A DNA stretch of 23,236 nt from a virus, in IMG/VR virus record IMGVR_UViG_3300046535_001680, positions 1 to 23,236 of that record. One strand, given 5' to 3'. The position numbers were made by a program, and so were the translations under genes. This document shows positions 1 through 21,513 of the stretch, piece after piece. The notes beneath the pieces were generated by a model. It was not told the origin of the DNA, did no database searches, and saw nothing but the letters and a program-made list of their open reading frames with translations. How positions within the stretch are numbered: the stretch's first letter is position 1; each line of letters begins with the position of its first letter.

Positions 1-138
1 CACCTGGGGGGCGCGGACCTGGGGGGCGCGGACCTGGGGGGCGCGCACCTGCGGGGCGCTAGACGGTACTCTTTCGACGTCGGGGTATCTGATTGGGATC
101 TGGTCAACGGCGTGCTTCGAAAGGTAGGTGCCCCGTGA
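1..138 (+). CDS. Pentapeptide-repeat protein, C-terminal end (partial)
   Basis: The reading frame is open from the first base of the window and ends at TGA 136-138, giving the last 45 residues of a protein that begins outside. Residues 1-20 follow the pentapeptide pattern A-(D/H)-L-x-G (HLGGA, DLGGA, DLGGA, HLRGA). A 25-residue non-repeat tail ending VGAP follows. Pentapeptide repeats fold as a right-handed quadrilateral beta-helix; some members (Qnr, MfpA) mimic DNA and bind gyrase, but most have no known role, so no function is assigned. The stop overlaps the GTG of the next gene (GTGA at 135-138), the junction type used throughout this operon, which supports the frame. The main doubt is that the body of the gene is not visible. 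Confidence 0.7.
   Translation, partial: HLGGADLGGADLGGAHLRGARRYSFDVGVSDWDLVNGVLRKVGAP
2..61 (+). repeat. Four tandem 15-bp units coding for pentapeptide repeats
   Basis: The unit ACCTGGGGGGCGCGG occurs at 2-16 and 17-31 exactly, at 32-46 with one change and at 47-61 with two. The 15-bp period equals five codons in the open frame, so the array is coding. It may continue to the left of the window. Confidence 0.85.
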
Positions 139-548
139 GCGATCAGTACGATCTTGCGCAGACTGAGCGGATTCTTGCTCGAGTTGGACGCGACCGTGAT
201 CAGTATCTCGAGCAACCCCAAAAGCCCCGTCTCGAGACGGACTCAGACAAGCGCAAGGCGATTCCCCTCGCGTCTGGATGTCTGGACTACTTCCCCGATG
301 CCCTCGCCGCCGTGGCGGAGCTCTCGCACGTGGGCAACGAGAAGCACAACCCCGGGGAGCCGCTGCACTGGGCGCGAGGGAAGAGCACCGACGAGGCGGA
401 TTGTTTGCTCCGACACTTCGTCGAGCGCGGGACCGTCGACACGGACGGGATCCGGCATTCGGTCAAGGTGGCGTGGCGGGCGTTGGCCCTGCTCCAGAAG
501 GAACTCGAGGCGGCGTACGGACTCCCGATATCGAGGGGGTCGCGATGA
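135..548 (+). CDS. MazG/MazZ-like dATP/dGTP pyrophosphohydrolase family protein
   Basis: 137 residues. From about residue 40 the pattern matches the dATP/dGTP diphosphohydrolase N-terminal family (PF18909, formerly DUF5664): a lysine-rich start, then VGNEKH, LHWARGK, the helix DEADCLLRHF, and an acidic/His helix (DTDGIRHSVKVAWRALALL). These all-alpha enzymes cleave dNTPs to dNMP and pyrophosphate using Mg2+ held by Glu/Asp residues, and alter the nucleotide pool during infection. The GTG at 135 is chosen over a TTG at 93 because AGGTAGG lies just upstream and because it forms a GTGA overlap with the pentapeptide gene. The stop overlaps the next gene as ATGA. Family assignment is from remembered motifs; the substrate is inferred. 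Confidence 0.6.
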   Translation: MSDQYDLAQTERILARVGRDRDQYLEQPQKPRLETDSDKRKAIPLASGCLDYFPDALAAVAELSHVGNEKHNPGEPLHWARGKSTDEADCLLRHFVERGTVDTDGIRHSVKVAWRALALLQKELEAAYGLPISRGSR

Positions 549-946
549 TTCTCAGGGGAATGATGCGGGCTTTGACTGACCAGACCACGCCCGGGCCTTG
601 GGAGCAACGCCTCGATCGGATTGGAGGAGGACGAGTGATCCCCCGTACCGTCCTCGTCAACGGCGTCCGCTACCGAACCGCCGTGCGTCCGCGCGCACAC
701 TTCCGTTGCGATGGGGTCGATCTCGACGGGCTTTGCGATCCCGAACAGGCGCTGATCGTCATCGCGCGCGAGCTCGCGCCGTCGCAGCAGACCGCGGCGT
801 ATCGGCACGAGATCGGGCACGCGGCGTTCCACGAGTCCGGGGCGTCCGAACTCCTGAAGGACTACACCACGCAACCGGATCGATTGGAGGAGGTTCTCTT
901 GCAAGTTTTCGCGCCCGTGTACCGTCTTGCGTTGGGGGTCAAATGA
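545..946 (+). CDS. HExxH metalloprotease, ImmA/IrrE-like
   Basis: 133 residues from the ATG at 545. The zinc-binding motif HEIGH lies at residues 88-92 in the context AAYRHEIGHAAFHESG, as in ImmA/IrrE-type (DUF955) peptidases; Glu115 or Glu116 could be the third ligand. Before it is a beta-rich segment with VNGVRYR and DLDGLCDPEQALIVI, typical of small phage members of this group. ImmA cleaves phage repressors and IrrE acts on DNA-damage regulators; the target here is unknown. The start overlaps the previous stop (ATGA) and has GAGGGGG upstream. A second in-frame start, GTG at 635, has a stronger ribosome site (GGAGGAGG at 623-630) and would give 103 residues that still contain the motif. Confidence 0.65.
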   Translation: MILRGMMRALTDQTTPGPWEQRLDRIGGGRVIPRTVLVNGVRYRTAVRPRAHFRCDGVDLDGLCDPEQALIVIARELAPSQQTAAYRHEIGHAAFHESGASELLKDYTTQPDRLEEVLLQVFAPVYRLALGVK

Positions 947-2136
947 AAAACCGCGGAAGTTTCGTTCCCAAGTGGTCCGATGAGCAGATCGAAACGGCCC
1001 GGGCGCTCGTGGACGAGGCGCCTACGAAGACGCGGGGGTATGCAAGCGCGGCGGACTACCTGGGCATCACCGAAGATGCGGCGCGCAAGGTGGTGAGCGG
1101 GCGCAATCGCGGGCCGCGCAAGCGCGCGACGCAGTCGCCCGCCCCCCTCCCGACCTATGCAGCGCGAGTCGAGGCTAGGGCAGACCGCTCCCGCGTTGCC
1201 TCGCTCGAGCGGGAGAATCATGAACTTCGCCTCGCGGTCGATGCGTACTCGTCCGCAACGAAGCGCCCGCTCGCGCCCGTGAAGCGGTACGAGCTCGGGT
1301 CTGGTCTTCGCGAAGCTACGTCCGTCGCGATGCTCTCCGATGTTCACTGCGAAGAGGCGGTCCGCGCGGGGGAGACCCCGACGGGGAACGAGTACAACCC
1401 GGAGATCGCCGAAAAGAGCATCGCGCGGTTTTTCGCCGGATATCGCTGGCTGATCGAATTTCACCGCAACGCCTTCCAGATCCGTCACGCGCTTCTCTGG
1501 CTGGGCGGCGACCTCATGACGGGGCACATCCACGAAGAGCTGAAAGAGACGACCGCCTCGACGCCGATTGAAACGATGCTCTGGCTCCGTTCGCGCATCG
1601 TGTCAGGCATCGATCTCCTTCTCGAGGACGATCGCCTCGATCGTCTGCTCATCCCCTGCTCCTACGGAAACCACGGTCGGGACACGAAGAAGTCCTTCCG
1701 CGCGCAGGGGGCGGCGCACTCGTACGAGTGGGCGCTGTACCAATGGCTCGCGCACCACTACGCCGGCAACCGACGCGTCGAGATCCTCGCCGACCAGAGC
1801 GCGCATCAGTACGTGCAGGTCTATGACTTCAATCTGCACTTTCACCACGGCGACGAGACGAACTATGGCGGGGGGGTCGGGGGAATCACGATACCCCTGA
1901 ACAAGGCCGTGGCGCAGTGGGACATCGCGCGCAGGTGCGACTATCACCACTTCGGGCACTGGCATCAGTACATTGACACGGGTCGAATTGTCGTCAACGG
2001 GAGCGTTATCGGGTACAACGCCTTTGCGATGGCGATCAAGGCGGCGCCCGAGCCCCCGCAGCAGGCGTTCTATCTTCTCGACGCGAAGCGGGGCAAGACG
2101 TGCAAGAGTCCGATATGGGTTCGGGAGCGGGCGTGA
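943..2136 (+). CDS. Metallophosphoesterase (calcineurin-like) with N-terminal HTH and coiled coil
   Basis: 397 residues. Residues 10-60 resemble a helix-turn-helix (YASAADYLGITEDAARKVVSG) followed by a basic stretch (RNRGPRKRAT). Residues 84-104 look like a short coiled coil. Residues 125-385 carry the metallophosphoesterase motifs in order: DVH 133-135, GGD 188-190, GNH 242-244, HFHHGD 299-304, GHWH 338-341. These form the two-metal centre used by phosphodiesterases, phosphatases and Mre11/SbcD-type nucleases. All expected metal ligands appear present. The DNA-binding-like N-terminus favours a nucleic acid substrate, which is inference. The ATG at 943 forms an ATGA overlap and has GGGGG upstream; the frame runs further back without a better start. 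Confidence 0.75.
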   Translation: MKNRGSFVPKWSDEQIETARALVDEAPTKTRGYASAADYLGITEDAARKVVSGRNRGPRKRATQSPAPLPTYAARVEARADRSRVASLERENHELRLAVDAYSSATKRPLAPVKRYELGSGLREATSVAMLSDVHCEEAVRAGETPTGNEYNPEIAEKSIARFFAGYRWLIEFHRNAFQIRHALLWLGGDLMTGHIHEELKETTASTPIETMLWLRSRIVSGIDLLLEDDRLDRLLIPCSYGNHGRDTKKSFRAQGAAHSYEWALYQWLAHHYAGNRRVEILADQSAHQYVQVYDFNLHFHHGDETNYGGGVGGITIPLNKAVAQWDIARRCDYHHFGHWHQYIDTGRIVVNGSVIGYNAFAMAIKAAPEPPQQAFYLLDAKRGKTCKSPIWVRERA

Positions 2137-2882
2137 AAAACCCTGCGAAGGAGACCGCGCCACCAGCGATGTTGAAAGACCTCGAGCAATGCCCCCCGAT
2201 GACGCCGAAGGAGGAACGTAGCATCGCTCGGAAGATGCGGCGCGGGTCGAGGCAGGCGCGCGCGGAATTCATTCGCCGGAACATGCGCCTCGTGTTCGTG
2301 TGCGCGAAGCGCCTGGTGTGGCTACCCCTGACTCTCGAGGAGCGCGTAGCCTCGGGGTACGAGGGTCTGATCATCGCGGTCGACAAGTTCGATCCCTCGC
2401 GGGGTTTTCGCTTCGGGACGATGGCGGGGTGGTGGATTCGAGCGACGATCGTCCGCGAAGCGAACGACAAGGGGCGTCTCGTGCGGTTGCCTGCACGACT
2501 GAGCGAAGGGAAGAAGGCGAAACCCGTGGACGGAATCGATGCCGGTGATTTCGCGGTCACGTCTCTGGACCGCGAAAGATGGGTGGACGGAACGAGCGGG
2601 GAGTTCACGCTTCACGACATCCTAGCGAGCGACGCCCCTGCGCCGGACGCAAGGCTGTACGAGGCGGAGAGACGAGAAGGGGCGATGCGGATGCTCGACG
2701 GACTCACCGCGCGGGAACGTCTCGTGCTCGAGTACCGACACGGGTTCCGAGGCGAGGAGCAGACCTTGCAGGAGATTGGAGCGATGTGGGGGCTCTCGCG
2801 CGAGCGCATCCGGCAGATCGAGGCGGGGGCGCTCGCGAAGATTCGTAAGCGTGTCGACACCGGCGTCCTGGAGAAGCCGTGA
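2133..2882 (+). CDS. RpoD-type (sigma-70) RNA polymerase sigma factor
   Basis: 249 residues. Region 1.2 lies at about 14-40 (MTPKEERSIARKMRRG). Region 2 lies at about 42-122, with NMRLVFVCAKR, GLIIAVDKFDPSRGF, GWWIRATIVREA and RLVRLPARL. Region 3 is shortened: only a 3.2-like finger (SLDRERW then LHDILASDAPAPDA, 144-173) is clear, and the 3.0/3.1 helices are nearly absent. Region 4 lies at about 188-240, with the 4.2 helix LSRERIRQIEAGALAKI. It should direct host core polymerase to phage promoters. Compared with E. coli sigma-70 from memory, the -10 readers Q437 and T440 correspond to Ala104 and Val107, while the -35 readers are kept. The GTG at 2133 gives a GTGA overlap with GGGAGCGG upstream; ATG 2115 and GTG 2100 are less likely starts. 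Confidence 0.92.
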   Translation: MKNPAKETAPPAMLKDLEQCPPMTPKEERSIARKMRRGSRQARAEFIRRNMRLVFVCAKRLVWLPLTLEERVASGYEGLIIAVDKFDPSRGFRFGTMAGWWIRATIVREANDKGRLVRLPARLSEGKKAKPVDGIDAGDFAVTSLDRERWVDGTSGEFTLHDILASDAPAPDARLYEAERREGAMRMLDGLTARERLVLEYRHGFRGEEQTLQEIGAMWGLSRERIRQIEAGALAKIRKRVDTGVLEKP

Positions 2883-3076
2883 AAAAGTCCCTTCGCCGCT
2901 GGGAAGCGACAGTGTCCGGGCGCACGTTGGTTGCCTACGCGCGCACGGCGAAGGCGGCGCGGGCGCTCATCGCCGCGCATCTCTGCGCCCCGCCCGAAAG
3001 CATTTCCGTCGTGTGGGCGCCGTTCGATGAGATGGTGACGACCCTGTTCGAGGGGCGAAGGGCGCCGGGAGCATGA
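2879..3076 (+). CDS. Small protein of unknown function (65 aa)
   Basis: Not recognised. It begins with GTG in a GTGA overlap with the sigma factor gene, preceded by GGAGAAG, and ends in an ATGA overlap with the next gene. The start is basic (KKSLRRW), followed by an alanine-rich helix (RTAKAARALIAAHL) and a C-terminal part with two aromatic residues. There is no signal peptide or membrane segment. Its place directly after the sigma factor, translationally coupled to it, makes a partner or modulator of the sigma factor possible, but the sequence gives no direct sign of that. Confidence 0.6.
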   Translation: MKKSLRRWEATVSGRTLVAYARTAKAARALIAAHLCAPPESISVVWAPFDEMVTTLFEGRRAPGA

Positions 3077-3381
3077 AACACGAGACCCGATCTTATTGTC
3101 TCACGTGCGATCGGTGCATTCAAGACGACCTAGAGCACTTCGAGGGACGTCGGTGCTCTGCGTGCGGCGATGAGACGCTGGGCGCCAAATGGGAGGTGCA
3201 CGACGGTGTGATGCACCTCTGTGTACTGGCCCGGGCACACATCCCTCAGATCACTTGCACGATTGCGCTCTCTTGCTGCACGTGTCAGTTCGTCGTCGGA
3301 CGCATTGGACATCCGGGGGATACGACTCGTCGGCGTATCCTGAGCGTCGACTGTCCGATCCACGCTACGCCGACGAGATAG
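3073..3381 (+). CDS. Cysteine-rich, probable zinc-binding protein (102 aa)
   Basis: It has eleven cysteines in 102 residues. Cys9/Cys12/Cys15 and Cys28/Cys31 (CxxC spacing) could form one zinc ribbon, and Cys62, Cys68, Cys69, Cys71 and Cys94 a second cluster. No catalytic motif is visible. The ATG overlaps the preceding stop as ATGA, making it the last gene of the rightward operon. Its 3' end overlaps the end of the convergent endolysin gene by 17 bases and contains one arm of a large inverted repeat. Similar small zinc-ribbon proteins are common in phages, usually of unknown role. Confidence 0.6.
   Translation: MKHETRSYCLTCDRCIQDDLEHFEGRRCSACGDETLGAKWEVHDGVMHLCVLARAHIPQITCTIALSCCTCQFVVGRIGHPGDTTRRRILSVDCPIHATPTR
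3326..3377. terminator. Candidate bidirectional terminator hairpin at the convergent junction
   Basis: A perfect 12-bp inverted repeat, CTCGTCGGCGTA (3326-3337) and TACGCCGACGAG (3366-3377), encloses 28 bases. A further 4-bp pairing (GCGT 3344-3347 with ACGC 3362-3365) could extend the stem. It lies where the last gene of each operon ends. Neither side has a U-run, so intrinsic termination is uncertain. Confidence 0.45.
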
Positions 3382-3979
3382 TCGGCACGCGTCCTTTGAA
3401 GTCCTGCGAGACGAAGTCCACGTCCACGAACACGCCCGCTCGCGTGTGCGACGGCCACGCCTGGTACACGCACCATCCGGGCAGCGGCTCTGCGAGCGCC
3501 CCGTGCCGGTCACACACCCTCGCGGGCGCGCGCCAGTAGCGGACAACGTGCAGGCGCGTGAGCTCGTCCGTCGTGAGGGGCTGAGGACTCCCGACGTAGA
3601 TCCCGGGGACGTACCCCACAAGCGCGACCTCGTCCGCCCACGCGTTGATTGCGTGGATGAGCGCGTCGGGAGGGGTCTCATACGCCGCCTTCCCCTCGAG
3701 GTCGAGGAAGAGGGTCGTTCCCCGCGCGAGTCCGAGTAGGTGCGCCTGCTCCGCGGCGCTCTTGCCGTCGTACCGCCCTGCGAGGGTCACCCCGAAAGCG
3801 CCCATGCCCGCGCCCAGGACCGCGTCCAGCTGCGCTTTGCCGGCAACCCCAAGGTACAGGGCCACGAAGTCAATCCCCGACGCACGGAGCGCCTGCGCCT
3901 GGGAACGGGTGCCCCCCTGAGAGAAGGGCAGCGAATCGACCCCTCGCGCCCCGACGGGGCAGCTAACGACGTGGACCAC
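3365..3979 (-). CDS. Endolysin, DUF1906 / Rv2525c-like glycoside hydrolase-like domain
   Basis: 204 residues. Almost the whole protein matches the glycoside-hydrolase-like DUF1906 fold, a TIM-barrel relative of GH25 lysozymes: GVDSLPF at 13-19, FVALYLG at 38-44, FGVTLAGRYDGK at 62-73, LFLDLEG at 90-96, GIYVGS at 126-131 and VFVDVDF at 183-189. Candidate acidic residues are Asp15, Asp93, Glu95 and Asp187. No signal peptide is seen, so release would depend on a holin encoded just upstream. The GTG at 3979 is chosen because GGAGGGG precedes it; it overlaps the upstream gene by 17 bases. Catalytic activity of this domain in phages is inferred from its lysis-cassette context. Confidence 0.7.
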   Translation of the reverse strand: MVHVVSCPVGARGVDSLPFSQGGTRSQAQALRASGIDFVALYLGVAGKAQLDAVLGAGMGAFGVTLAGRYDGKSAAEQAHLLGLARGTTLFLDLEGKAAYETPPDALIHAINAWADEVALVGYVPGIYVGSPQPLTTDELTRLHVVRYWRAPARVCDRHGALAEPLPGWCVYQAWPSHTRAGVFVDVDFVSQDFKGRVPTISSA

Positions 3980-4145
3980 GGCGCCCCTCCAGTTTGATGA
4001 TCCTCGCCTCTTGGTTCGTGTGCACATGCTCATCGGCGGCGACGTGCTCGCGGATAGCGCTCTCGATGTCGGAGAGCTTCGAACGAAGCGCCCAGGTGGC
4101 GCCGCCAACCGTGACCAGGATCGTGACGAGTAGTTCGATGTTCAC
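3963..4145 (-). CDS. Small membrane protein with one TM segment, lysis cassette (60 aa)
   Basis: It has an N-terminal transmembrane segment at about residues 3-20 (IELLVTILVTVGGATWAL), followed by a charged helical region with coiled-coil character (KLSDIESAIREHV) and a basic tail (GRRGPRR). The shape recalls small phage proteins such as XhlA-like membrane factors or an inner-membrane spanin subunit, without clear homology. It starts with GTG in a GTGA overlap with the upstream gene and sits directly before the endolysin, which supports a lysis role. Confidence 0.6.
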   Translation of the reverse strand: MNIELLVTILVTVGGATWALRSKLSDIESAIREHVAADEHVHTNQEARIIKLEGRRGPRR

Positions 4146-4312
4146 GGGTCGAGCTCCCTTCGCATCTCGGCATCGGACGCCGCGACCATGGCGTCGCGAA
4201 TCGCTTTGCGGAGAGAGTCCTTTGAGAGACCCCCCTCGAGGGCGTTCACGATGTCGCCGAGCAAGTCGGCGTGTTCGACCAAGAACGCCCCGACCTCGGC
4301 GAGCGCCCCCAT
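4142..4312 (-). CDS. Small protein of unknown function, lysis region (56 aa)
   Basis: Not recognised. It is helical, with an N-terminal moderately hydrophobic stretch (GALAEVGAFLVEHADLLGDIVNAL) and a charged C-terminus (KAIRDAMVAASDAEMRRELDP). The ATG at 4312 shares one base with the preceding stop, with a G-run upstream. It is flanked by a lipoprotein gene and a small membrane-protein gene. Confidence 0.5.
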   Translation of the reverse strand: MGALAEVGAFLVEHADLLGDIVNALEGGLSKDSLRKAIRDAMVAASDAEMRRELDP

Positions 4313-4515
4313 CAGCGCAACCCCCCGTCCGCCATGCAGTCGGAGTACGCCTTGTAGCAATCCGGTCCGCTACCGCCGTCGAGATGACAGGCACGACCAA
4401 GTTCTTGGCAATGCTCGATCTTCGCCGCATCGTCGATGATGCCCGCCCGATCGGCGGGACCGAGCACGGCGCACGCGACGAGTCCGCAGAGAAAGCAGAG
4501 AACGATCTCTCTCAT
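4312..4515 (-). CDS. Small lipoprotein, Rz1-like outer spanin candidate (67 aa)
   Basis: Residues 1-15 form a short lipoprotein signal: MRE, a hydrophobic run, and the lipobox LVAC, with Cys15 as the lipidated residue. The mature part is about 53 residues and contains Cys36, Cys43, Cys53 and Cys60, which could form two disulfides. A lipoprotein among lysis genes suggests an outer-membrane spanin subunit, although Rz1 proteins are usually proline-rich and this one is not. It starts at ATG 4515 in an ATGA overlap. A longer in-frame extension to 4650 was rejected because it removes the signal peptide from the N-terminus. Confidence 0.6.
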   Translation of the reverse strand: MREIVLCFLCGLVACAVLGPADRAGIIDDAAKIEHCQELGRACHLDGGSGPDCYKAYSDCMADGGLR

Positions 4516-4667
4516 GATTGGCTCCTTCCGAGCATGAACGCGACGAGGGTGCCCGCGCTTCCGACAGCCATCCCCGCCTCGGGACCGAGGAATCGGTATG
4601 CTGCGAAAGCGAAGCCAAGCATCAAAGCGAAGACCGCCACCTGGGGCCATGTGATCGTCGACAGCAT
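4512..4667 (-). CDS. Probable holin with two transmembrane segments (51 aa)
   Basis: A very small, hydrophobic protein. TM1 lies at about residues 7-27 and TM2 at about 31-47, joined by a short GPE turn; a short charged tail (RSQS) follows. This is the layout of small class II-type holins, which make lesions in the inner membrane and release the endolysin. The ATG at 4667 shares a base with the upstream stop, and the stop overlaps the lipoprotein start. The call rests on topology and context, not on a recognised family. Confidence 0.6.
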   Translation of the reverse strand: MLSTITWPQVAVFALMLGFAFAAYRFLGPEAGMAVGSAGTLVAFMLGRSQS

Positions 4668-4909
4668 CACCAATACACCGTGGCGCTCGTGGTCGTGAGA
4701 CTCGAGATGTTCTTGCAACGGACAGGCTGCATCTCGCCCGCGAGAAAGGGGAGCGTCACGCTCTGCCCGTCCTCGGAGATCACGACGATGTTCCCCGCGG
4801 CGGTCGCTCGGAGCGCCCGACACGGTGCGCCCCCGACGGCGACGAGGTCGGTCGCCCCCGAGACGACGGCGAAGTTCGGCGAGCAGAAAGTACCGGTTGT
4901 CTGTCCCAT
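4667..4909 (-). CDS. Small virion protein resembling a spike base protein (80 aa)
   Basis: A beta-rich protein whose pattern (AVGGAPCRALRATAAGNIVV, then a glycine turn, TLPFLAGEMQPVRCKNI, ending TTSATVYW) recalls the short spike base proteins described in gene transfer agents and tailed phages. Those proteins form a collar that anchors a receptor-binding spike. The position next to the fibre and spike genes fits. The ATG at 4909 has GAGGAC upstream, overlapping the previous stop. Family assignment is from memory of the pattern. Confidence 0.5.
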   Translation of the reverse strand: MGQTTGTFCSPNFAVVSGATDLVAVGGAPCRALRATAAGNIVVISEDGQSVTLPFLAGEMQPVRCKNISSLTTTSATVYW

Positions 4910-4916
4910 GTTGTCC

Positions 4917-5615
4917 TCAGATCCCGTATCTGGCGTTCACGTAGGTCGCGAGGCTTGCTCGTTCGGGGGCGGTCAACGCGCGCGCGACGATGATCAGCTC
5001 CCCGATCTTGTAGTTCCACCCCTGCGCGGCCGCGTTGTTCCCGATGACGAACCCGGTGGATCCGGACTCCGTCCCCTGGTTGCCGGCGCCGAGTCGCTGC
5101 GTGCCCGCGATGTAGATCGCCGGGTCCACGCCACTACCGGCGTAGGCGTGCATCGACCAGAACGGTGATTGCACTTCGGTCGCGACGCTCGAGATCGTGT
5201 GAGTGCTCGCAACGCCGTCCGAGTAGGCGTACGTCGTGACGCCGATGGTGAAGAGCAAGGAGCCTGCTTCCGGGGTCGTCCGCCGCAGTGCGAAGAGGCA
5301 TCCGCCAGTCGCGTCACCCGCCTGAGCGACCGCAATGACGGTGTAGATCGAGCCCGCCGTCACGAGCGAGGAGGTCGTGTTCACGAACGACGCGCCGCCG
5401 GCCATGTCGAAGGCGGCCTGTCCACCGAGCGTGGTCGTCGCCGGTGTCGTGCCGCCAGCGGGCGCATCGTGTCCGTTGCCGCTCTGGTCGGTCCAAGAGG
5501 AAGTGCTACCGACGTCGCCACGGAACCACGCGACGGGCGCGAGATCTAGCGGCGAGAACGGGGCCGGGCCCACGGTAGACTTGCGGAGCATCAATCCAAG
5601 TCCGATGCCAATCAT
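4917..5615 (-). CDS. LamG / concanavalin A-like lectin domain protein, tail-associated
   Basis: 232 residues. After a short N-terminus, residues 25-232 look like a LamG-type jelly roll: PVAWFRGDVGST, SSWTDQSGNGHDA, AAFDMAGGASF, a central run of beta strands, and a closing strand set IGELIIVARALTAPERASLATYVNARYG, a common ending for such domains. These bind carbohydrate and occur in phage fibres and decoration proteins. No catalytic residues are apparent. The ATG at 5615 overlaps the spike gene stop (ATGA). A receptor-binding or capsule-binding role is inferred from its position directly after the tail spike. Confidence 0.65.
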   Translation of the reverse strand: MIGIGLGLMLRKSTVGPAPFSPLDLAPVAWFRGDVGSTSSWTDQSGNGHDAPAGGTTPATTTLGGQAAFDMAGGASFVNTTSSLVTAGSIYTVIAVAQAGDATGGCLFALRRTTPEAGSLLFTIGVTTYAYSDGVASTHTISSVATEVQSPFWSMHAYAGSGVDPAIYIAGTQRLGAGNQGTESGSTGFVIGNNAAAQGWNYKIGELIIVARALTAPERASLATYVNARYGI

Positions 5616-8600
5616 GACGCAAGAACGATCTGCACGATCGACCTCCACTTGGTGCTGTTGGTGTTCGGCGGCGTGAGGTCACCCGAGATCTCGCCCGTGG
5701 CCGCGTCCGTGATGTTCAGCACCGGCATGAAGTCCGTACCGAACACATCGCCGACGACGCCACCGGCCGCGCCCACCTCGACGATCGCAGAGCCGTTCCA
5801 CTTGTACTGCTGCGTCACGACCTGCGAGTAGGCGTCCGCGTTGGCCTCATGCCCCTCGATGCTCCAGATCAACTTGAAACTCTGCTGAGCGACGACCATC
5901 ACGAAGACCGACGGAGGCGTGACGCTAGTGGTCGTGGCGTCAAACACTTCAGTGTTCATCACCCGACCGTTCTCGCTCACCCAATCGACGCGACGAATGT
6001 GGTGGAACGTTGCCTTTTCCGCCTCGATGGTGTCGCCTGCGGTGGGCTCCAGCACGGGGTTGTGATTGTAGGACGGCACCCAATCCGTGCCGTCGCAGAA
6101 CGCTTCGACGGTGGCACCGTTCGCGCACGCCACTCCGATGCCTGTCAGGCCCGCGACGATGATCGATTGGTTGCCCGTCGTGCTGTTTCGAAAGGTGCGT
6201 CGGTTGCCCGGCACGAGCGGCAGGAAAACCACCCGCGTATCGGTGAGCGTGCCCGCGGAGGTGACGTCGATCACCCCGTCCTTGAACTCTTCGAATGTCG
6301 CCGTGTAGTCCGCGTCCGTTGGGATCTCGATGCCGCCGAACCCGCTCGTTTCGTCGGGTAGCACCACCTGGCGGCAAAACACGCCGTCCGAGTTGTCGAA
6401 CCACGGGTTATCGTTCTTCGTGCAGTTGACCACGCGCACGACGTTAGTTGGGTCGGTGTCGGCGAGTACTTTGATGAATCCAGGGTGACTCGGCAACGCG
6501 GCGAACTGACACTGCAAAAACTCATATTTGCTGCTGTCCTCGGAGAAGTGTCCCGAGCCGCTGCCGAATATCTCGATGAACGGCTTCAGCCCGCCCTCTT
6601 CAAAGCAGCCGAAGCCGACGCCCACCAGCGTGACCAGATCCATCCCCCGGAAGAAGAACCCGCCCGCGACCGCGATGCCGCCAACGGTCGTCGTCTCATC
6701 CGAAATGCCCGCGGTGCCGTCGATCACCAGAGAGTCCGTCTCGGCGAAGATTTGATACTTGTTCGCGACGAGGTAGCAGCGACCGGTGATCGACACCGAT
6801 GCTCCAGCCATCACGATGGCGCACTTGTACGAGCTGCCCACCTCGATGCCGTGGATGTTGATGATGCCCGCGCTGCCGGTCATCTCGAGCGCGATACGCG
6901 CGTTCGCGGGCGCATTGTTGAATAGGACGTTCGTCAGATTCGAGTTGTAGGAGTTGAAGACGAGACGAATGCCGGTGCGGCACACGCAAGACACGTTGTA
7001 GATTCGTGTGGATACGGCGGATTGGCAGTCGATACCGGGTCCGTACACGTTGGTGACGGTCAGTTGTTCAATCTGCACATCTCGGATCGCGAAGTTAGCA
7101 TTGTCGTCGAGCCTGTGCGGGATCCACGCCTGAGAAAGGCCCCCGGAGAGAAGCGGCCTAACGGCTGCCTGCACAAACACGCCGTCGAGCGTGTCCCAGT
7201 CCGTCCACCAAAGGGTGGTAGAGCCGTTGAACGCGAGCTTCGTTGCACCTGGCGTGTAGCCAGTCGTGTGGATCGACGCCGCATCAAGCACCATCGAAGC
7301 GCACTCATGGCGCACGCTGCCGCGCACCTCGCCGCCGTTCCACCCGCCGATGGCGCCCATGCCGTAGCGGACAGTCTCCCAATCTTGTTGGATGAGCGTG
7401 CCCGCGATAGCGGTCGTACCCTTCAGCACACCGTCGAGGAAAAGCCGGATGTTCGTGCCGTCCCAGTCCACGCAGAGCTCGTGGAAGTTGCCATCATCCG
7501 CCGCTACCGCGGCCGCGCCGGTGGAGGACACGGTCCCGACGCCCGCTGTAGTGAGGATTTGCGCCTGAAACTCGTTGGGCGATACGTTGATGCCAAACAC
7601 GGAATCGTAGGGTGAAGTGAGAATGTTTCCGGTCTTCTCGCCGTAGGAGACAATCAGATAGCCACCCTCGGGAATCGCGGCGTACCAGCCAGTGCGGAAG
7701 CGAAACTGGATGCGGAAACAGAAGGCCGACTTGCCGTGCAGGTCCCACCCGGCGCCGTACTCGCGGAGATCGAGGCAGCTCCGTAGGGATACGCCTTCCT
7801 CTGCCCCGTGCAGAATGGCCGCGTTGCCACCCGCGAAAGCGTTCGGCGTGACGGGGAACTCGCCGACGTCCGGGCCCACATAGAACGTGGGGCCCACGTA
7901 CTGCTCAGAGCGAACAACCGTGGAGTCCTTTCCGGCCCCCAGGATCTTCGACCCTGAGTTTTTGACGTGCAATGGCTTCGTCACAATGGTGGAGCCAGCG
8001 GGAAACTCGATCGGGCTTGCGCTGTAGTTCAATCCAGCGGTCGTGACGAGAGCGGCGTCGAGTGCCGCCCTCAGGGCGTCGGTGTCATCGCTGGCGCCAC
8101 TGAACTTCGCCCCAAATACCGGATCGTGCGGGCGTATGGCCTGAGCGATCGGCGGCTTCGGATCGATGGTGATGAACCCCGTGGTGCCGTCCGCGATGCC
8201 TCCTCGGTACGAGCTCGACGCTGGCGACGTGGCGAGCACCGCGCGCGCCGTCGTCGGGTCGATGATGACGGGGGTAGGCTTGCCGCTACCCGGCGGAAAA
8301 AAGCCCGAGACCTCGACGATGTGCCCGACGGGCGCGTACTTCAGCGTCGCGCCAAGGATGACGGTCTCCGTCGCCATGCCGACGACGTGCCCCGCGGCGA
8401 CGAGATTCGCGGCGGTCGCGGGGAGAAGCTTCGTCGAATCCCCGGCGTCGCTCGCCGTGCAAAGGAACTGCCCCGCGCCGATGTTCTCGGCGGCGAGTCC
8501 AGACGGCGCGCTCCCCGCACCGGCGACAAGCGCCGTGAGGTCGATCACGGTCTCAGCGTTCGTCGGATCGTCGAAGACGACGGTATCGTCCACGCCATCG

Positions 8601-8701
8601 AAGCGAACGACCGTCCGTTTCGGGAGCAGGGTTGTCCCCTGCTTGATCTTCGCGGGACCAAAGAAGGCGTCGAGGTACGTGGGCTCTCTCTCTGTCGTCA
8701 T
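5612..8701 (-). CDS. Tail spike/fibre: pectin-lyase-like beta-helix with inserted LamG-like domain
   Basis: 1029 residues, the largest gene here. Residues 1-190 form an N-terminal attachment region. At about 197-236, GAKFSGASDDTDALRAAL and IEFPAG match the start of pectate-lyase-type phage spikes. The first helix strands (NSGSKILGAGKDSTVV) are followed at about 305-475 by a LamG-like jelly roll (FRIQFRFRTGW, FHELCVDWDGTNIRLFLDGVLKGTT). The beta-helix resumes at about 535-790 (FAIRDVQIEQLTVTNVYG, then many short strands). The last 115 residues form a separate domain, possibly for trimer formation. Such spikes bind and often cleave surface polysaccharide. The ATG at 8701 overlaps the previous stop (ATGA). 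Confidence 0.8.
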   Translation of the reverse strand: MTTEREPTYLDAFFGPAKIKQGTTLLPKRTVVRFDGVDDTVVFDDPTNAETVIDLTALVAGAGSAPSGLAAENIGAGQFLCTASDAGDSTKLLPATAANLVAAGHVVGMATETVILGATLKYAPVGHIVEVSGFFPPGSGKPTPVIIDPTTARAVLATSPASSSYRGGIADGTTGFITIDPKPPIAQAIRPHDPVFGAKFSGASDDTDALRAALDAALVTTAGLNYSASPIEFPAGSTIVTKPLHVKNSGSKILGAGKDSTVVRSEQYVGPTFYVGPDVGEFPVTPNAFAGGNAAILHGAEEGVSLRSCLDLREYGAGWDLHGKSAFCFRIQFRFRTGWYAAIPEGGYLIVSYGEKTGNILTSPYDSVFGINVSPNEFQAQILTTAGVGTVSSTGAAAVAADDGNFHELCVDWDGTNIRLFLDGVLKGTTAIAGTLIQQDWETVRYGMGAIGGWNGGEVRGSVRHECASMVLDAASIHTTGYTPGATKLAFNGSTTLWWTDWDTLDGVFVQAAVRPLLSGGLSQAWIPHRLDDNANFAIRDVQIEQLTVTNVYGPGIDCQSAVSTRIYNVSCVCRTGIRLVFNSYNSNLTNVLFNNAPANARIALEMTGSAGIINIHGIEVGSSYKCAIVMAGASVSITGRCYLVANKYQIFAETDSLVIDGTAGISDETTTVGGIAVAGGFFFRGMDLVTLVGVGFGCFEEGGLKPFIEIFGSGSGHFSEDSSKYEFLQCQFAALPSHPGFIKVLADTDPTNVVRVVNCTKNDNPWFDNSDGVFCRQVVLPDETSGFGGIEIPTDADYTATFEEFKDGVIDVTSAGTLTDTRVVFLPLVPGNRRTFRNSTTGNQSIIVAGLTGIGVACANGATVEAFCDGTDWVPSYNHNPVLEPTAGDTIEAEKATFHHIRRVDWVSENGRVMNTEVFDATTTSVTPPSVFVMVVAQQSFKLIWSIEGHEANADAYSQVVTQQYKWNGSAIVEVGAAGGVVGDVFGTDFMPVLNITDAATGEISGDLTPPNTNSTKWRSIVQIVLAS

Positions 8702-9318
8702 TGGGGTCTCCACACTTTGTAGGCCACCGTGTAGGCGCCTTGCCACTGCAGAGATGCGGCGGCATCCGCGTTGACCCGCCCTCGCAAGCTACCCGCGTAG
8801 GACCCCGCAGCGGTGACGATGTCAAGGGAGACAAGGGTGAATGGGACGACCATCACCGCGGAGGCGAGGTTTTGCCCCATCTGAACTTTGCTTCCCGGGA
8901 CGGCCACGGCGCCCGTGCCGTTTTGGTTTCCCTCGAATTGGATCCATCCCCTGGAGGTGCCGGAGCCGCTGTCCTGTATGAGAGCGTGCGCTTGTACGAC
9001 GGCTTCCACTACGTCACCGACGGCCGTAACGATCGTGGGCGGGCTCGTGAATCCGCCGAATGAGGCCCACGCCGCTGTCGTAACTGGACTCCCGTGACCC
9101 GTCTCGGTCTCGCTTACGTCCTCAAATCGAATTGACTTCCACTGGACGAGCACGAGGTTCGACAGCGTAATCGGGTCGAGTCGCGTTTTCAAGTACGTTG
9201 TGCGATCGGCCAACGCCTCGAGGGCGACGTTCGCACTCGCGGCGTTGCGCGGGTCCCCGTCGTCCGGGATCGTCATCCCGGTGGGGTAGCTGTTTGTTCC
9301 GTTGTAGATGCTGGACAT
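8698..9318 (-). CDS. Tail fibre-associated virion protein, unknown (206 aa)
   Basis: Not assigned to a family. The N-terminus (PDDGDPRNAASANVALEALADRTTYLKTRL) is the short helical adapter often seen at the start of phage fibre-like proteins. The rest is beta-rich with many Thr, Ser, Gly and Val residues. There is no enzyme motif. It lies between tail protein I and the tail spike with overlapping starts and stops (TGATG, ATGA), the usual place for a fibre connector or proximal fibre. The ATG at 9318 is supported by the one-base overlap with the upstream stop. Confidence 0.6.
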   Translation of the reverse strand: MSSIYNGTNSYPTGMTIPDDGDPRNAASANVALEALADRTTYLKTRLDPITLSNLVLVQWKSIRFEDVSETETGHGSPVTTAAWASFGGFTSPPTIVTAVGDVVEAVVQAHALIQDSGSGTSRGWIQFEGNQNGTGAVAVPGSKVQMGQNLASAVMVVPFTLVSLDIVTAAGSYAGSLRGRVNADAAASLQWQGAYTVAYKVWRPQ

Positions 9319-10124
9319 CAGGTGATCCCTTCCCAGAATCGGCAGTCTGGACTTCGCCCGCTTGGTACTGCTACGCCTCCGCTCAGGACATGCCAACGTC
9401 CCCACGTGCCATCAGGCATTGTAGTGGGGGTCGAGGGGTCGAACAACGAGGAGTCGTAGGTCCAGATGATCGACCGCACGTAGGAGTGCTCGCTCTTCCA
9501 CTGCCGGATGAGCGCGAGCACGGCGTCGACATCTTCGCGCGGGGCATCGTGTCCAAACCCGAGACCGCCGCCCCACCGCTCGCCGTCACCCCACGGGCTG
9601 TCGATGGGCCACGGCGGCTGATCCACCACGATCCAGAGGTCCCACCAATGGGTCGCGTTGCCCGGATCCGTGACGCTATCCCAGTCCCACGCGACCTGAT
9701 CGTCGGAGAAGGTGCCGTCCGTCTCGCAGGTGATCATGCGCCCCGCGCGGTTCACCACGCGCACGCGAGGGTGATTCGACAGGTACTCGTGAAGGGACAA
9801 CGCGATCGCCTCCGCACTGCCCGCGCGCCGCCAACGATCCAGCCACGGGATGAGGCGCGCGGCGAAGTTGTCGTCAGTCTCGCCTTGCCCTTGAAGGATG
9901 CCGCGGCTTCGCCCGATGAGAGGCAGTGCGGTCGGCGTACCGAACCCGGGAAACTTCGCCTCGACCCCCTGGATCCGCGTGTCGATCTGCGCGTCGAAGA
10001 TGGCCGCCCACGCCCAGATGACCGCGAACCCCGTGCGCAGCGGCTCGGGCGCGCGTCCGCGGTCTGCGAGCCACGGCGGGATCCAGGCGCGGATCGCGTC
10101 TCGGAGGCGGAAAGCGGCGCTCAC
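9318..10124 (-). CDS. Tail protein I-like baseplate protein
   Basis: 268 residues. The N-terminal half is helical, with the pattern RTGFAVIWAWAAIFDAQ, then GRSRGILQGQGETDDNFAARLIPWLDRWRRAGSAEAI, found in proteins encoded right after baseplate J (P2 gpI / Mu gp48 position). The C-terminal half is tryptophan-rich. It would join the wedge to the fibres. It starts with GTG in a GTGA overlap with baseplate J. The assignment relies mainly on gene order and the helical repeat pattern. Confidence 0.65.
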   Translation of the reverse strand: MSAAFRLRDAIRAWIPPWLADRGRAPEPLRTGFAVIWAWAAIFDAQIDTRIQGVEAKFPGFGTPTALPLIGRSRGILQGQGETDDNFAARLIPWLDRWRRAGSAEAIALSLHEYLSNHPRVRVVNRAGRMITCETDGTFSDDQVAWDWDSVTDPGNATHWWDLWIVVDQPPWPIDSPWGDGERWGGGLGFGHDAPREDVDAVLALIRQWKSEHSYVRSIIWTYDSSLFDPSTPTTMPDGTWGRWHVLSGGVAVPSGRSPDCRFWEGIT

Positions 10125-11269
10125 GTGCCCGCCTCGACGATGCGCACATCGCTCACGTCTACAACGAGCGTCGCGACCTCGCCCGGGGAGAGGGGAAGAT
10201 CCGTGTCCGCGCCGTCGACGTCGAAGATCGTCGGGTGCGCGCTCTCTACGATTCCTGCGACGTAGTCGCCGTACAGGTACCCCTGCGTCGAGGGCGTCTT
10301 CGCAATCCCGCCGATGGGGTAGTTCTTGATTGCCTTTTCGAGTGCGGCGAGAACCAGAGTGCGGAGGTTTGCGGCGGACACCCCTGGACTTCGGGTCGCC
10401 CAGATCGTGAGGGTGGCGCCCAGCCCGACGGGGGTCGCGCCAAAGAGGTTGGCGGTCACGGAATCGGGACGGGCGATCGCCTCGATGTCCGCTCGTGCGA
10501 AGTCGAGATCTGCGGAGGTCGGCGTACCTGTTGGGGATGCGGCGTATATCGTCACGATCCCGGTCGCGGGGTCCGCCTGCACCTGAGCGCGGTTGATGTC
10601 CACGGGGGTTCCGTCATCTCGTAGAGCGGAGAGTACGGCGTAGCGGTATGCACCGCGGGGACCCAAGGGCGAGAGCGAGGCAAGGCGATCGAGGCAGCGC
10701 GCGCGGAGCGGCTCGTCCTCTTCTGCGTCCTGCCCGATGAACGCGGCGGGGTTCGTGACCGACACTCCGATGATGGTCGTCTCGAGCGAGTCTATCTCCC
10801 CCGGACCTGCGGAGGAATCCGATCCGAGCTCGACCGCCGAGAAGTCCACGAGGACGGTATCCCCGGGATTGAGATCGAACGCGGCGGTGTTTCGGTACGC
10901 CTTGCCCGTCGTAGAATCAAGCGCGCGCACCTCGTCGGGATCGAAGTGATACACCCCGCCCCCAGAGTTCGCGAGCTGCAGTTGCCCCGTCGCGGTCGTC
11001 TCGGGGATTCGCGTCACCCCGTAGACGTAATACGCGAGACGCGTGAGCCACGGGCCCTCGGCGGTATCGAGCCACCCTGCCCTGATCGCCTCAACGTCGA
11101 GAACCGTGACCCCCGCGAACGCGCGCGCGATTGATCGAAGAATGACACGCCTAGCGCCCGCGATGCGCCACGACCGTGCGGGGACTCCCAGGGTCTCGAG
11201 GATGTCGAGGCAGAGCTCGAGCGCGTCTGTTTCGGTGACGCTTTTGATGAGATCGTCAACGGCAAGCAT
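10121..11269 (-). CDS. Baseplate J-like protein
   Basis: 382 residues, the usual size. The pattern fits the baseplate J family (P2 gpJ / Mu gp47, PF04865): an N-terminal helical region with GWLDTAEGPWLTRLAYYVYGV, beta-rich middle with LNPGDTVLVDFSAVE, the signature EEDEPLRARCLDRLASLSPLGPRGAYRYAVLSA, and a C-terminal arm with SPGEVATLVVDVSDVRIV. It forms part of the baseplate wedge around the spike. The ATG at 11269 has GGAGGG upstream and shares a base with the previous stop; a TTG one codon earlier is less likely. Confidence 0.88.
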   Translation of the reverse strand: MLAVDDLIKSVTETDALELCLDILETLGVPARSWRIAGARRVILRSIARAFAGVTVLDVEAIRAGWLDTAEGPWLTRLAYYVYGVTRIPETTATGQLQLANSGGGVYHFDPDEVRALDSTTGKAYRNTAAFDLNPGDTVLVDFSAVELGSDSSAGPGEIDSLETTIIGVSVTNPAAFIGQDAEEDEPLRARCLDRLASLSPLGPRGAYRYAVLSALRDDGTPVDINRAQVQADPATGIVTIYAASPTGTPTSADLDFARADIEAIARPDSVTANLFGATPVGLGATLTIWATRSPGVSAANLRTLVLAALEKAIKNYPIGGIAKTPSTQGYLYGDYVAGIVESAHPTIFDVDGADTDLPLSPGEVATLVVDVSDVRIVEAGT

Positions 11270-11634
11270 CAAACCCTCCGAAACCCTTCGGCGTCATTCT
11301 GGAAGGCGAGATCGATTGCGCCGCCGGACGTGTCGATGTGCAGATCTACGCGCAACACCCCCGGAGAGTTCTCGGAGATCGTCGTTTGGCAAGACGACAC
11401 GCGATCGTCGCGCTGCACTTGCGAGTCAATACGATGCGCGAGCGTAGGATCGCTCGGCGCCGAGAGCAGGTCCGGAATCCCGATGCCTCGATCCGGGTCG
11501 TCGATGTTCGACCCCGGAGGTTCGATGAGGATGTGGTATACGTCCTGCGCCAAGACCTCGACGGGATCCGTCAGGTCGCGGTCGAACAGGGACAGATCAT
11601 CCCAGCAATCGAAGTCGGTGAAATCTTCCGCCAT
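11269..11634 (-). CDS. gp25/Mu gp46-like baseplate wedge protein
   Basis: 121 residues. An acidic N-terminus (AEDFTDFDCWDDLSLFDRDLTDPVEVLAQDVYHILIEPPGS) leads into a compact alpha/beta domain in which DPTLAHRIDSQVQRDDRV recalls the gp25 (GPW) fold. The gene order spike, this gene, baseplate J is that of Mu gp45-46-47. gp25-like proteins anchor the sheath to the baseplate and trigger sheath assembly. Starts and stops overlap by one base on both sides. Confidence 0.7.
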   Translation of the reverse strand: MAEDFTDFDCWDDLSLFDRDLTDPVEVLAQDVYHILIEPPGSNIDDPDRGIGIPDLLSAPSDPTLAHRIDSQVQRDDRVSSCQTTISENSPGVLRVDLHIDTSGGAIDLAFQNDAEGFRRV

Positions 11635-12788
11635 CAGGTTGCCTTGACCCTCGAGGCGGCGACGCTGCCCGCGCCCCCCATCGCCACCGCGGGAACCCCG
11701 GTGGATCCCGAGATGGTTCCACCCGAATGCACGTGCGTGTTGAACGCCGTGCGGATCGCGTTCAGTTCTGACAATACGAGCGCGGCGAGGGCGACGTAGT
11801 CCGCTCCGCCCGCGAGATCGATCCGCGTGCTCGCGTCGAGGCGAAGCACGAGGGGCGGCGCGCCGTCCTGGAACGAGCGCACGATCGGGCGCGACGGGTC
11901 GCCGGCGATGAACTCTACGATCACCTCGGACCCCGGGGCATACGTCGCCGAGAGACCCGCCATGCCCGGCCAGGGGGTGAGCGGGATCATGTCCGGCAAT
12001 CCGCGCGACTTCTCAACCGCCTGAAGCGCTAGGCGTCCGTCCGCCTTCTGTTCGACGATGCGGTATCGGTACGCGCGCGCGAAGACGATGCGCGACTTCG
12101 CCTCGATGAGGCGAGAGAACGCTTCGGAGAGGCGCGTCTTCGGTTGCGCCCCGCACCACGCTGTCGCTCGCGCGCCGCCCTCTCCGAAGGTCTGCTCTAC
12201 ATCGCGCACCGTGACCGATCCATCGAGACGGGCGTCCGTAAGAACCATGCCCGGTTGCACGAGGTCGTCGCTCGCGATCTCCGCTTTCTGCATGAGAGGG
12301 TCCCACGAAAGGACCTGCACGCTCGCGGGCGCGGGCACGGTAGCACGAGGCCCCACGATCGTCTTGCCCGCGAAGTCCGCATGCCAATCGAGACCGTCCA
12401 GGACAGACGAAGCGACTCCCGCGGCGCGCTCGTAGTCCACGCCGAGGCGCGTCGAGAGACCCGACACGATCGTCTCCTTCGCCTCCGCTGCCGTGGTTTC
12501 GATGACGGAGGACAGTTTCACGCCCGCATCGTTGTGGTACGCGCGCGGTCCTAGCGTCTTCGTCCACCCGTTGGCACCCCCCACCACGCGGGATTGGACG
12601 TGCGCGGCGAAGCGCCCCGATGCGCCTGCGTCGACCGTGCCGACCAGGGTGGCAGCGCCCAGGACGAGCGTAGCGCGCCCCGCGGCAACGGGCAGATCGT
12701 AGTCCACGTCGGCGGTCCACGCGCCCTGCCACGGGACGAGCAAGCGCACGGACTTGGCGCGCGATCCGTTCAGGACGAGGGTCGTCAC
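11634..12788 (-). CDS. Baseplate hub/spike protein (Mu gp45 / P2 gpV-like C-terminus)
   Basis: 384 residues. Residues 1-240 are beta-rich and hub-like (VVGGANGWTKTLGPRAYHNDAGVKLSSVI, then QVLSWDPLMQKAEIAS). Residues 240-306 look like the OB-fold of spike proteins (PGMAGLSATYAPGSEVIVEFIAGDPSRPIVRSFQDG). The C-terminal region carries HVH at 352-354, an HxH motif that binds iron at the tip of P2 gpV-type spikes, followed by a Ser/Gly-rich end. The protein would cap the tube and pierce the outer membrane. It starts with GTG in a GTGA overlap. No separate hub gene (Mu gp44-like) is seen, so this may combine both roles. Confidence 0.7.
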   Translation of the reverse strand: MTTLVLNGSRAKSVRLLVPWQGAWTADVDYDLPVAAGRATLVLGAATLVGTVDAGASGRFAAHVQSRVVGGANGWTKTLGPRAYHNDAGVKLSSVIETTAAEAKETIVSGLSTRLGVDYERAAGVASSVLDGLDWHADFAGKTIVGPRATVPAPASVQVLSWDPLMQKAEIASDDLVQPGMVLTDARLDGSVTVRDVEQTFGEGGARATAWCGAQPKTRLSEAFSRLIEAKSRIVFARAYRYRIVEQKADGRLALQAVEKSRGLPDMIPLTPWPGMAGLSATYAPGSEVIVEFIAGDPSRPIVRSFQDGAPPLVLRLDASTRIDLAGGADYVALAALVLSELNAIRTAFNTHVHSGGTISGSTGVPAVAMGGAGSVAASRVKAT

Positions 12789-13360
12789 TTGGCGACCTCT
12801 TCTTTGAATTGCTTGACGAGCGCCTCAATCTGCATATCCGCCGCGTCCTTCGCCGCGGGCACCTTGGGTTTGGTCGGCGGGACCTTGCCCCCCGCGGGAC
12901 CGGTACCGTTCGGCGTGCCGAGACCGGCGGTCGGAAGCGCGAACTTCTCCAACTTGATTTCACACGTCCAGAGTCCGTTGTCGTCCTGATCCCACTGCGA
13001 CACGTCCACGCGGTTCACGCTCGTGATGTTCAGGGGCGGTCCGTTGACGAGAGGGTGCACGATCGCGAGCGCTTTCGGTGCCGCCTTCCCCGTGCCCGCG
13101 GTCGGCTCCTTCACGAGCACCTTGCGCGCGAACGCCTCCCACGTCGGCGTCCAGATCGCCGGCTTGTCCCACGCCGTTACCGTGATGCTCCCCTTCGAGA
13201 GATCTTCGCCAGCGAAGACGCTCGATGCGCCCGACGTGCCGTACCCCTTGCGTTGGTCCCACTTCCACGGATCGCCGAATCCCTTGATCTCTACCTTGAA
13301 GAAGGGGGGACCCAAGTACTCGCCGCCGAGCAAAACGTGATCTTGCCGCAACTCGGTCAT
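12785..13360 (-). CDS. Tail/baseplate protein after the tape measure (191 aa)
   Basis: It lies between the tape measure and spike genes, where myoviruses encode a hub-adaptor (Mu gp43, gp53-like). Residues 1-140 are beta-rich, with GFGDPWKWDQRKGYG, SKGSITVTAWDKPAIW and a closing NGLWTCEIKLEKF. A proline-, glycine- and lysine-rich linker then leads to a C-terminal amphipathic helix (AADMQIEALVKQFKEEVAK). No LysM repeat is evident. The helix may contact a partner in the hub. Role is from position. The ATG at 13360 overlaps the tape measure stop as ATGA. Confidence 0.6.
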   Translation of the reverse strand: MTELRQDHVLLGGEYLGPPFFKVEIKGFGDPWKWDQRKGYGTSGASSVFAGEDLSKGSITVTAWDKPAIWTPTWEAFARKVLVKEPTAGTGKAAPKALAIVHPLVNGPPLNITSVNRVDVSQWDQDDNGLWTCEIKLEKFALPTAGLGTPNGTGPAGGKVPPTKPKVPAAKDAADMQIEALVKQFKEEVAK

Positions 13361-15273: not shown

Positions 15274-15876
15274 GAATCAGAGCTCCTATCGCCTCGGTCA
15301 AGATCTTCACGCCTACGATCCGTCGGGTCTCTTGCTCCTCGTCATCTCGGGGCGTCTCGAGAAGCGCCCCGATGCACGTCGCCGCGGGCTCTAGGTTGAT
15401 CTGATCTTTGCCGCCGACAAGGCCCTTTCGCGCTTCCTTGTGGAGGCTTTCTATTTTCCCCGCTGCCGCTCCGTCCGAACCCCGTGCATCTCGCAGATCG
15501 CGAGCGCGCATTGCCCGGGCACCTCGTCGTGCTTTTCGGCGAGCGCCTTGAACCCGTCGAGGTCGGGGTAGAGGAGGTTCGGTTTCACGAGGTCCCACGC
15601 GTCGGCGCGGTTCTTGCGGCCGTCGAGGAACGTCCTAAAGCGAGGGACGGGGCCGCGCTGGACGGCGCAGAGCACTCCCAGTTGCTCGTTCGTGACGAGC
15701 GTCCAATCGACCTCGACCTCGCCAATCTCTTCCGAGAAGCGGACCGTGAGCTCGTCGGCGAGATCTCGGAGCGCCATGCGGCGCGCCTCTTTCTCGCGCG
15801 CAATCTCCGCAAGGCGGGCGCGAACCTGCTCGCGCTTCGCCTCCGTCGTCACGCCGTTCGTGTTCGCGTCCGTCAC
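15263..15876 (-). CDS. Tail assembly chaperone, -1 frameshift fusion product (gpGT/Mu gp41-42 type)
   Basis: A fusion of 204 residues is predicted. Ribosomes read 141 codons from GTG 15876, slip back one base on GGGAAAA (15460-15454), and continue with ATA at 15454 through 63 more codons to the stop at 15263-15265. The added part (IESLHKEARKGLVGG, then QINLEPAATCIGALLETPRDDEEQE, ending LIRGR) has no good start of its own in that frame, where the upstream shadow is arginine-rich. In lambda the same arrangement makes gpG and gpGT, needed to load tube subunits on the tape measure. Location just before the tape measure fits exactly. Confidence 0.8.
15410..15460 (-). promoter_or_regulatory. Programmed -1 ribosomal frameshift site: slippery heptamer plus stem-loop
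   Basis: On the minus strand the heptamer G-GGA-AAA (15460-15454) is in the X-XXY-YYZ register of the first frame and is followed at once by the TAG stop (15453-15451). After a 6-base spacer a stem can form between 15447-15436 (GCCTCCACAAGG) and 15422-15410 (CCTTGTCGGCGGC). It has eleven pairs with one mismatch, one bulge and a 13-base loop. Lambda uses the closely related GGGAAAG. Spacing and register are as in known -1 sites. Confidence 0.8.
15451..15876 (-). CDS. Tail assembly chaperone, non-shifted product (gpG-like, 141 aa)
   Basis: This is the main product of the chaperone locus, ending at TAG 15453-15451. The N-terminal third is a charged helix (KREQVRARLAEIAREKEARRMALRDLADELTVRF). 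The rest is mixed, with EVEVDWTLVTNEQLGVLCAVQRG and FLDGRKNRADAWDLVKPNLLYPDL. It is made in excess over the fusion and binds tube subunits during tail building in known systems. It starts with GTG in a GTGA overlap with the tube gene, with GAGGAC upstream. Function is by position and by the frameshift architecture rather than by sequence likeness. Confidence 0.75.
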   Translation of the reverse strand: MTDANTNGVTTEAKREQVRARLAEIAREKEARRMALRDLADELTVRFSEEIGEVEVDWTLVTNEQLGVLCAVQRGPVPRFRTFLDGRKNRADAWDLVKPNLLYPDLDGFKALAEKHDEVPGQCALAICEMHGVRTERQRGK

Positions 15877-16364: not shown

Positions 16365-16366
16365 AG

Positions 16367-18360: not shown

Positions 18361-18371
18361 CGGTTTCCCTT

Positions 18372-19784: not shown

Positions 19785-19793
19785 GAGTCACCC

Positions 19794-20429: not shown

Positions 20430-20442
20430 GTCGTTCTCCCGA

Positions 20443-21498: not shown

Positions 21499-21513
21499 TG
21501 TCTTGATCTCCTA

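Follow-up and report, generated by a model that had tools for sequence, protein, structure and literature searches.

An intact gene for a σ70-family sigma factor is carried by the IMG/VR virus record IMGVR_UViG_3300046535_001680, whose entire 23,236 bases (the window) were analysed here. The gene lies at 2133-2882 on the plus strand, and its 249-residue product, P0001, is confirmed as a σ70-family factor with regions 2 and 4 in order, as predicted from both the sequence and a structural model. Then, what could such a factor do for the phage? We consider it probable that P0001, which lacks σ3 and is encoded towards the end of the early operon, switches the host polymerase to the late genes. The observations behind this reading are the gene itself, its domain make-up, its position and overlaps in the operon, the late module on the opposite strand and the presence of sigma factor genes in related phages.

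The window has a G+C content of 64.7%, and no tRNA genes were found in it. The early operon on the plus strand is a chain of genes joined by consecutive 4-base overlaps, which runs up to a convergent junction with the late module on the minus strand. First in the chain is the end of a pentapeptide-repeat-like frame, followed by genes for a dATP/dGTP diphosphohydrolase N-terminal-like protein (135-548; PF18909, 41.5 bits), an M78/IrrE-like metallopeptidase (545-946; PF06114, 19.9 bits, just below the cut-off) and an exonuclease/metallophosphoesterase-like protein (943-2136; phrog_284 exonuclease, 105 bits). The sigma factor gene is located immediately downstream, starting with GTG and overlapping the stop of the exonuclease gene by 4 bases. 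Two small ORFs (2879-3076 and 3073-3381), again with 4-base overlaps, end the operon; neither has a family match in Pfam or PHROG, and the second contains CxxC pairs and is zinc-ribbon-like. The convergent structural module (3365-23156, minus strand) was recognised by Pfam and PHROG matches and by synteny with a Labilithrix prophage. It is of the contractile-tail type and includes an endolysin-like glycoside hydrolase, tail fibre, baseplate J, tape measure, tube, sheath, and Mu-like gpT and gpI. Within it, the 1044-residue tail-fibre-like protein (5612-8746, minus strand) has weak pectate-lyase-like and lectin-like stretches and is a possible depolymerase. A 181-residue ORF with CxxC pairs (16367-16912, minus strand), located between the sheath and tube genes, resembles a homing-endonuclease-type insert; it has no Pfam match above the cut-off and a relative in L162.

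Roughly 13% of phage genomes have sigma factor homologues, among which the ones serving lytic development are known to diverge (PMC9429907). Therefore, a phage sigma factor gene as such is not surprising, and P0001 is a divergent example of an already known kind of phage regulator. For example, the sigma factors of phiEco32 and Salmonella phage 7-11 switch the host polymerase to middle and late genes on the opposite cluster and, like P0001, are encoded among functional genes, with the structural genes on the opposite strand (PMC4331800). The likeness is one of gene arrangement, and the window differs from these phages in that no anti-σ gene was recognised in it. In the proposed mechanism, P0001 would be made from the early operon, would use σ2 and σ4 to bind the host core RNA polymerase in competition with the host sigma factor, and would direct this polymerase to middle/late phage promoters, above all to the one of the structural operon on the opposite strand. 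Some observations count against such a switch. No consensus σ70 promoter was found in a scan of 1-4700, and the intergenic gaps are at most about 80 bases, those between predicted genes inside the window reaching about 50 bases at most. Both operons run off the contig, the open frame at each end overlapping the complete gene next to it, and the late promoter is located outside the contig, past 23236. The contig offers no gene-free stretch in which to look for a phage promoter motif.

The initial annotation of this DNA had proposed a sigma factor gene at 2133-2882, in which regions 1.2, 2 and 4 were all clear. The gene is borne out by the open frame, by PHROG 351 (RNA polymerase sigma factor; E value 7e-43) and by Pfam, where Sigma70_r2 (PF04542) matches residues 46-115, the σ2 domain core (2268-2477), with 35.3 bits (cut-off 24) and Sigma70_r4 (PF04545) matches residues 188-239, the σ4 domain (2694-2849), with 62.2 bits (cut-off 24.1). 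Regions 2 and 4 are thus clear, while "clear" is a little strong for region 1.2, which is alignable but scores 14.6 bits against a Pfam cut-off of 22. Region 1.1 is absent, and P0001 begins at region 1.2. An AlphaFold model built with 42 σ sequences has high confidence at about residues 11-114 and 171-242 (pLDDT >90 over residues 11-110) and low confidence in the linker (residues 116-160); the predicted picture is one of σ2 and σ4 helical domains on a loose linker. A Foldseek search of the PDB with this model returned σA and RpoS first (E about 1e-10), with low overall TM-scores because the placement of the two domains is free.

Which type of sigma factor, then, is P0001? It passes the cut-off of the sigma70-ECF superfamily model TIGR02937 (90.8 vs 42.9 bits). 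The best NCBIfam model is RpoS (TIGR02394; 153.7 bits, below the cut-off of 378.7), RpoD-type models rank next (TIGR02393; 118.5 bits, below the cut-off of 354), and in a sequence comparison with solved chains, RpoS and σA come closest. The earlier designation "RpoD-type" is consequently unproven, since the best model is RpoS, the RpoD and RpoS cut-offs are missed and the trees described below are weakly supported. P0001 shares with the group 1 and 2 σ70 factors (RpoD, RpoS) the σ2-σ4 order, most of the region 2.3 aromatics, the RERIRQIE helix of region 4.2 and the length of the region 3.2 finger; it differs from them by the absence of region 1.1, the missing σ3 core, a rewritten region 2.2, Y430M/Q437A/T440V and H455R. 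With ECF (group 4) factors it has in common a two-domain σ2-σ4 make-up without σ3; it differs from them in its region 1.2-like segment and in a σ finger of full length. Region 2 is also similar to MzaA of the MZA anti-phage system (PADLOC, 99.9 bits). Membership in this defence system was rejected; the match is best only along the σ2 stretch of the 683-position model, and the four neighbouring early genes tested gave no PADLOC match.

Between the two domains, the σ3 domain (regions 3.0-3.1) has no PF04539 match, and no region 3 was found in the window. The equivalents of P453 and S506 are 24 residues apart in P0001, compared with 53 in both E. coli RpoD and RpoS, in agreement with the earlier claim that region 3.0/3.1 is nearly gone. 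The shortened linker, in which the σ3 core is missing, covers residues 116-160 (2478-2612), mostly at pLDDT <=65. The region 3.2 finger has its full length (45 vs 43), and the finger alignment places the motif TLHD at residues 159-162 (2607-2618). This [TS]LHD motif is common to P0001 and the sigma factors of L003, L005, the L004 contig and the Labilithrix prophage. Among 131 aligned sigma factors, it occurs at the finger position only in P0001, the prophage, L003 and L005; L004 entered the finger comparison by manual addition of its factor. Some of the related phage factors have a variant of this motif.

Based on a MAFFT alignment in E. coli RpoD numbering, P0001 was compared with E. coli RpoS, RpoH and FliA, sigma factors from Myxococcota genomes and viral sigma factors. 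Columns were tallied over the 125 other factors, and percentages from this set are approximate, because it was partly picked by similarity to P0001 and includes some chromosomal rpoD/rpoS copies. The residue mapping of the initial annotation proved right: Met97 (2421-2423), Ala104 (2442-2444) and Val107 (2451-2453) are the equivalents of Y430, Q437 and T440, respectively. Met occurs at position 430 in none of the 125 factors, 120 of which have Tyr. Ala437 is found in 11, most of which are RpoH-like or belong to other alternative factors, and Val440 in 12, roughly 10% of the set apiece; singly, each is frequent in RpoH-like and group-2 factors, while the pair of Ala437 and Val440 is found in none. 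Could these residues be ordinary variants of the host's own RpoD? The Labilithrix RpoD (L083) reads YKFSTYATWWIRQAITR, the same as E. coli, and a chromosomal RpoD variant was rejected for this protein, which retains Y, Q and T. If the host is a myxobacterium, the three residues, judged from the alignment, are not host variants.

The recognition helix RERIRQIE of region 4.2 (2799-2822) is unchanged, as the initial annotation had stated, being identical to E. coli RpoD at 584-589, with R223, E224, R225, R227 and Q228 as the equivalents of R584, E585, R586, R588 and Q589. However, the -35 residues E585, R586, R588 and Q589 are about 98-99% conserved across all the sigma factors compared, and being near-universal they are uninformative on specificity, including the RpoD type. 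Of the conserved positions, defined as those where half or more of the set have the same residue, P0001 retains 20 of 31 in regions 2.3-2.4, within the normal spread (22 of the 125 others are as low). In region 4 it retains 22 of 30 (55 of 125 as low). Four of the five region 2.3 aromatics are kept (F92, F94, W100 and W101).

It is conceivable, although somewhat doubtful, that P0001 is a special case of the switch with hybrid specificity, in which a host-like -35 element is combined with a distinct phage-specific -10 element read via Ala104, Val107 and Met97. Met430 and the Ala437/Val440 pair, both absent from the other factors, and the Y, Q and T kept by Labilithrix RpoD speak for it, whereas Ala437 and Val440 are each frequent singly, regions 2.3-2.4 are ordinary overall and the -35 residues are not diagnostic. 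That is, the -10 readers are indeed changed, but their distinctiveness had been over-read. It has been reported that a T:A to C:G change at -12 is suppressed by the substitutions Q437H and T440I, and that the region 2.3 aromatics act in melting, with combined alanine substitutions impairing open-complex formation (PMC2613000). In view of the suppressor genetics, the -12 base pair is the one to watch. For the proposed switch to late genes, a TTGACA-like -35 element would be expected since region 4.2 is kept, and a different or relaxed preference at the -12 base pair since Q437 and T440 are replaced. Promoter melting would probably be retained despite Met97, given the four aromatics kept, and most of the extended -10 reader would be gone with the loss of σ3 and with Arg as the H455 equivalent.

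By the same counts, the main anomaly of P0001 is the core-binding region 2.2, rather than region 2.4. P0001 retains 9 of the 22 conserved residues in regions 2.1-2.2, and 4 of the 125 others are as low. The region 2.2 helix at the β' coiled-coil interface covers residues 68-85, helical in the model (2334-2387). The differences that had been claimed here are real and more extensive than stated, namely L384M, G398P, D403E, L404R, Q406A, E407S and N409Y. We take D403, Q406, E407 and N409 to be among the σ70 residues with core-contact roles, several of them contacting the β' coiled coil; nothing usable on Q406-type core-binding mutants was found in the literature. Could the host core itself be altered? 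In the β' coiled coil, Labilithrix and E. coli have the same residue at 41 of 47 positions, and among 14 positions inspected only V292I differs. An altered host core is therefore ruled out as the reason for the region 2.2 changes, if the hosts are Labilithrix-like.

The altered region 2.2 suggests core binding that is weaker, or that is helped or retuned by another factor. Several β'-gripping residues being replaced, it might also mean poor core binding, which counts against the switch. An unlikely possibility is that the rewritten core-binding helix works only on a phage-modified or co-factor-bound polymerase, and that the -10 element read by P0001 differs from those of all known sigma factors, with the host -35 element kept. 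It is quite unlikely that P0001 is a regulator no longer initiating alone, such as a σ-like decoy, a competitor for core binding or a factor dependent on a co-factor for core. This would fit the replacement of D403, L404, Q406, E407 and N409 in the face of an E. coli-like Labilithrix β'; however, the finger, most of the melting aromatics and region 4.2 are kept, and a mere competitor would not need them.

Searches for relatives of P0001 gave none in the viral contigs with the single sequence, no close one among the matches listed for a nine-σ alignment against these contigs (best segment 36%), none above 60% identity in phage and plasmid records, and no close one among the best 7 candidates per genome in 379 genomes of the Labilithrix phylum. 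The identity to host sigma factors is 38% at best. At the sequence level, the want of a close relative that might show selection of P0001 as a sigma factor also counts against the switch. The exonuclease search led to viral contigs and a contig of a Labilithrix MAG (Myxococcota), with relatives 60-65% identical. The MAG contig contains a serine recombinase gene, beyond which a chromosomal HemD/tetrapyrrole methylase gene is located, and its structural module is collinear with that of the window, the aligned proteins being about 50% identical. The L001 contig has the same structural module, and the two relatives share it at about 50% identity. Since the Labilithrix prophage and L001 share the exonuclease and structural module, the host likely belongs to soil-type bacteria and is likely myxobacterial. 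In the prophage (L081, G003:C1, about 18.7-64 kb), the early and late modules are divergent, whereas they are convergent in the otherwise collinear window, a difference suggestive of a circularly permuted phage genome.

Among the exonuclease-sharing contigs searched, σ region 2 is above the cut-off in all six and region 4 in five; the Labilithrix prophage also carries a sigma factor gene. No sigma factor gene was found in six more distant baseplate relatives, which are mostly fragments. The sigma factors of the exonuclease-sharing phages are very unlike one another, and σ3 is shortened or missing in those measured. Those of L001, L003, L004, L005 and L081 resemble P0001 in the early-module neighbourhood, the reduced or absent σ3 and the [TS]LHD-type finger; they differ from it by very low identity, P0001 being the most RpoD-like of the set in regions 2.4 and 4.2, and P0001 occupies a different place in the early operon from the sigma factors of its two closest phages. 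Several related phages (L003, L005 and L006; G383:44531-45597) have a pair of σ70-like genes, of which one lies above the exonuclease gene and the other directly after it, or which are neighbours. A region-2-only σ-like protein is often encoded in the place directly after the exonuclease gene (L002:2699-3298, L005:11263-11919). Nothing usable on sigma factors of Myxococcus phages was found in the literature.

Alternatively, could P0001 re-program host genes, such as those for dormancy or development, rather than serve the late genes of the phage? Auxiliary factors of this kind exist, like the sporulation-like sigma factors of Bacillus phages, and the known ones resemble host factors (PMC9429907). 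P0001, however, is far from any host sigma factor and stands in an operon with nucleotide-metabolism genes, and such a role is rather improbable. In two trees, P0001 falls outside the RpoD/RpoS group, weakly supported and on a long branch (2.3-2.7 changes per site). Grouping it with the sigma factors of exonuclease-sharing phages (p-AU 0.41) or with groups 1/2 (p-AU 0.40) is not rejected in either case. A recently captured copy of the host RpoD or a group-2 factor, with which the latter value and the RpoS/σA models and structures would agree, is hardly credible in view of the long branch, the missing σ3 core, the low identity to host factors and the LHD finger common to P0001 and the sigma factors of related phages.

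If the proposed switch to late genes is confirmed, P0001 would be a compact natural sigma factor that lacks σ3 and grips an ordinary β' coiled coil in a changed way, and it could help to find out which contacts between σ and core can be dispensed with. Such a result would further suggest that myxobacterial contractile-tail phages with Mu-like structural genes run late transcription with their own rapidly changing sigma factors, rather than with Mu-style activators. In addition, the viral records L148, L164, L166, L168, L195, L209 and MK416018 contain chromosomal rpoD/rpoS copies, identical or nearly identical to those of E. coli or other bacteria, which represent host DNA in virus collections.
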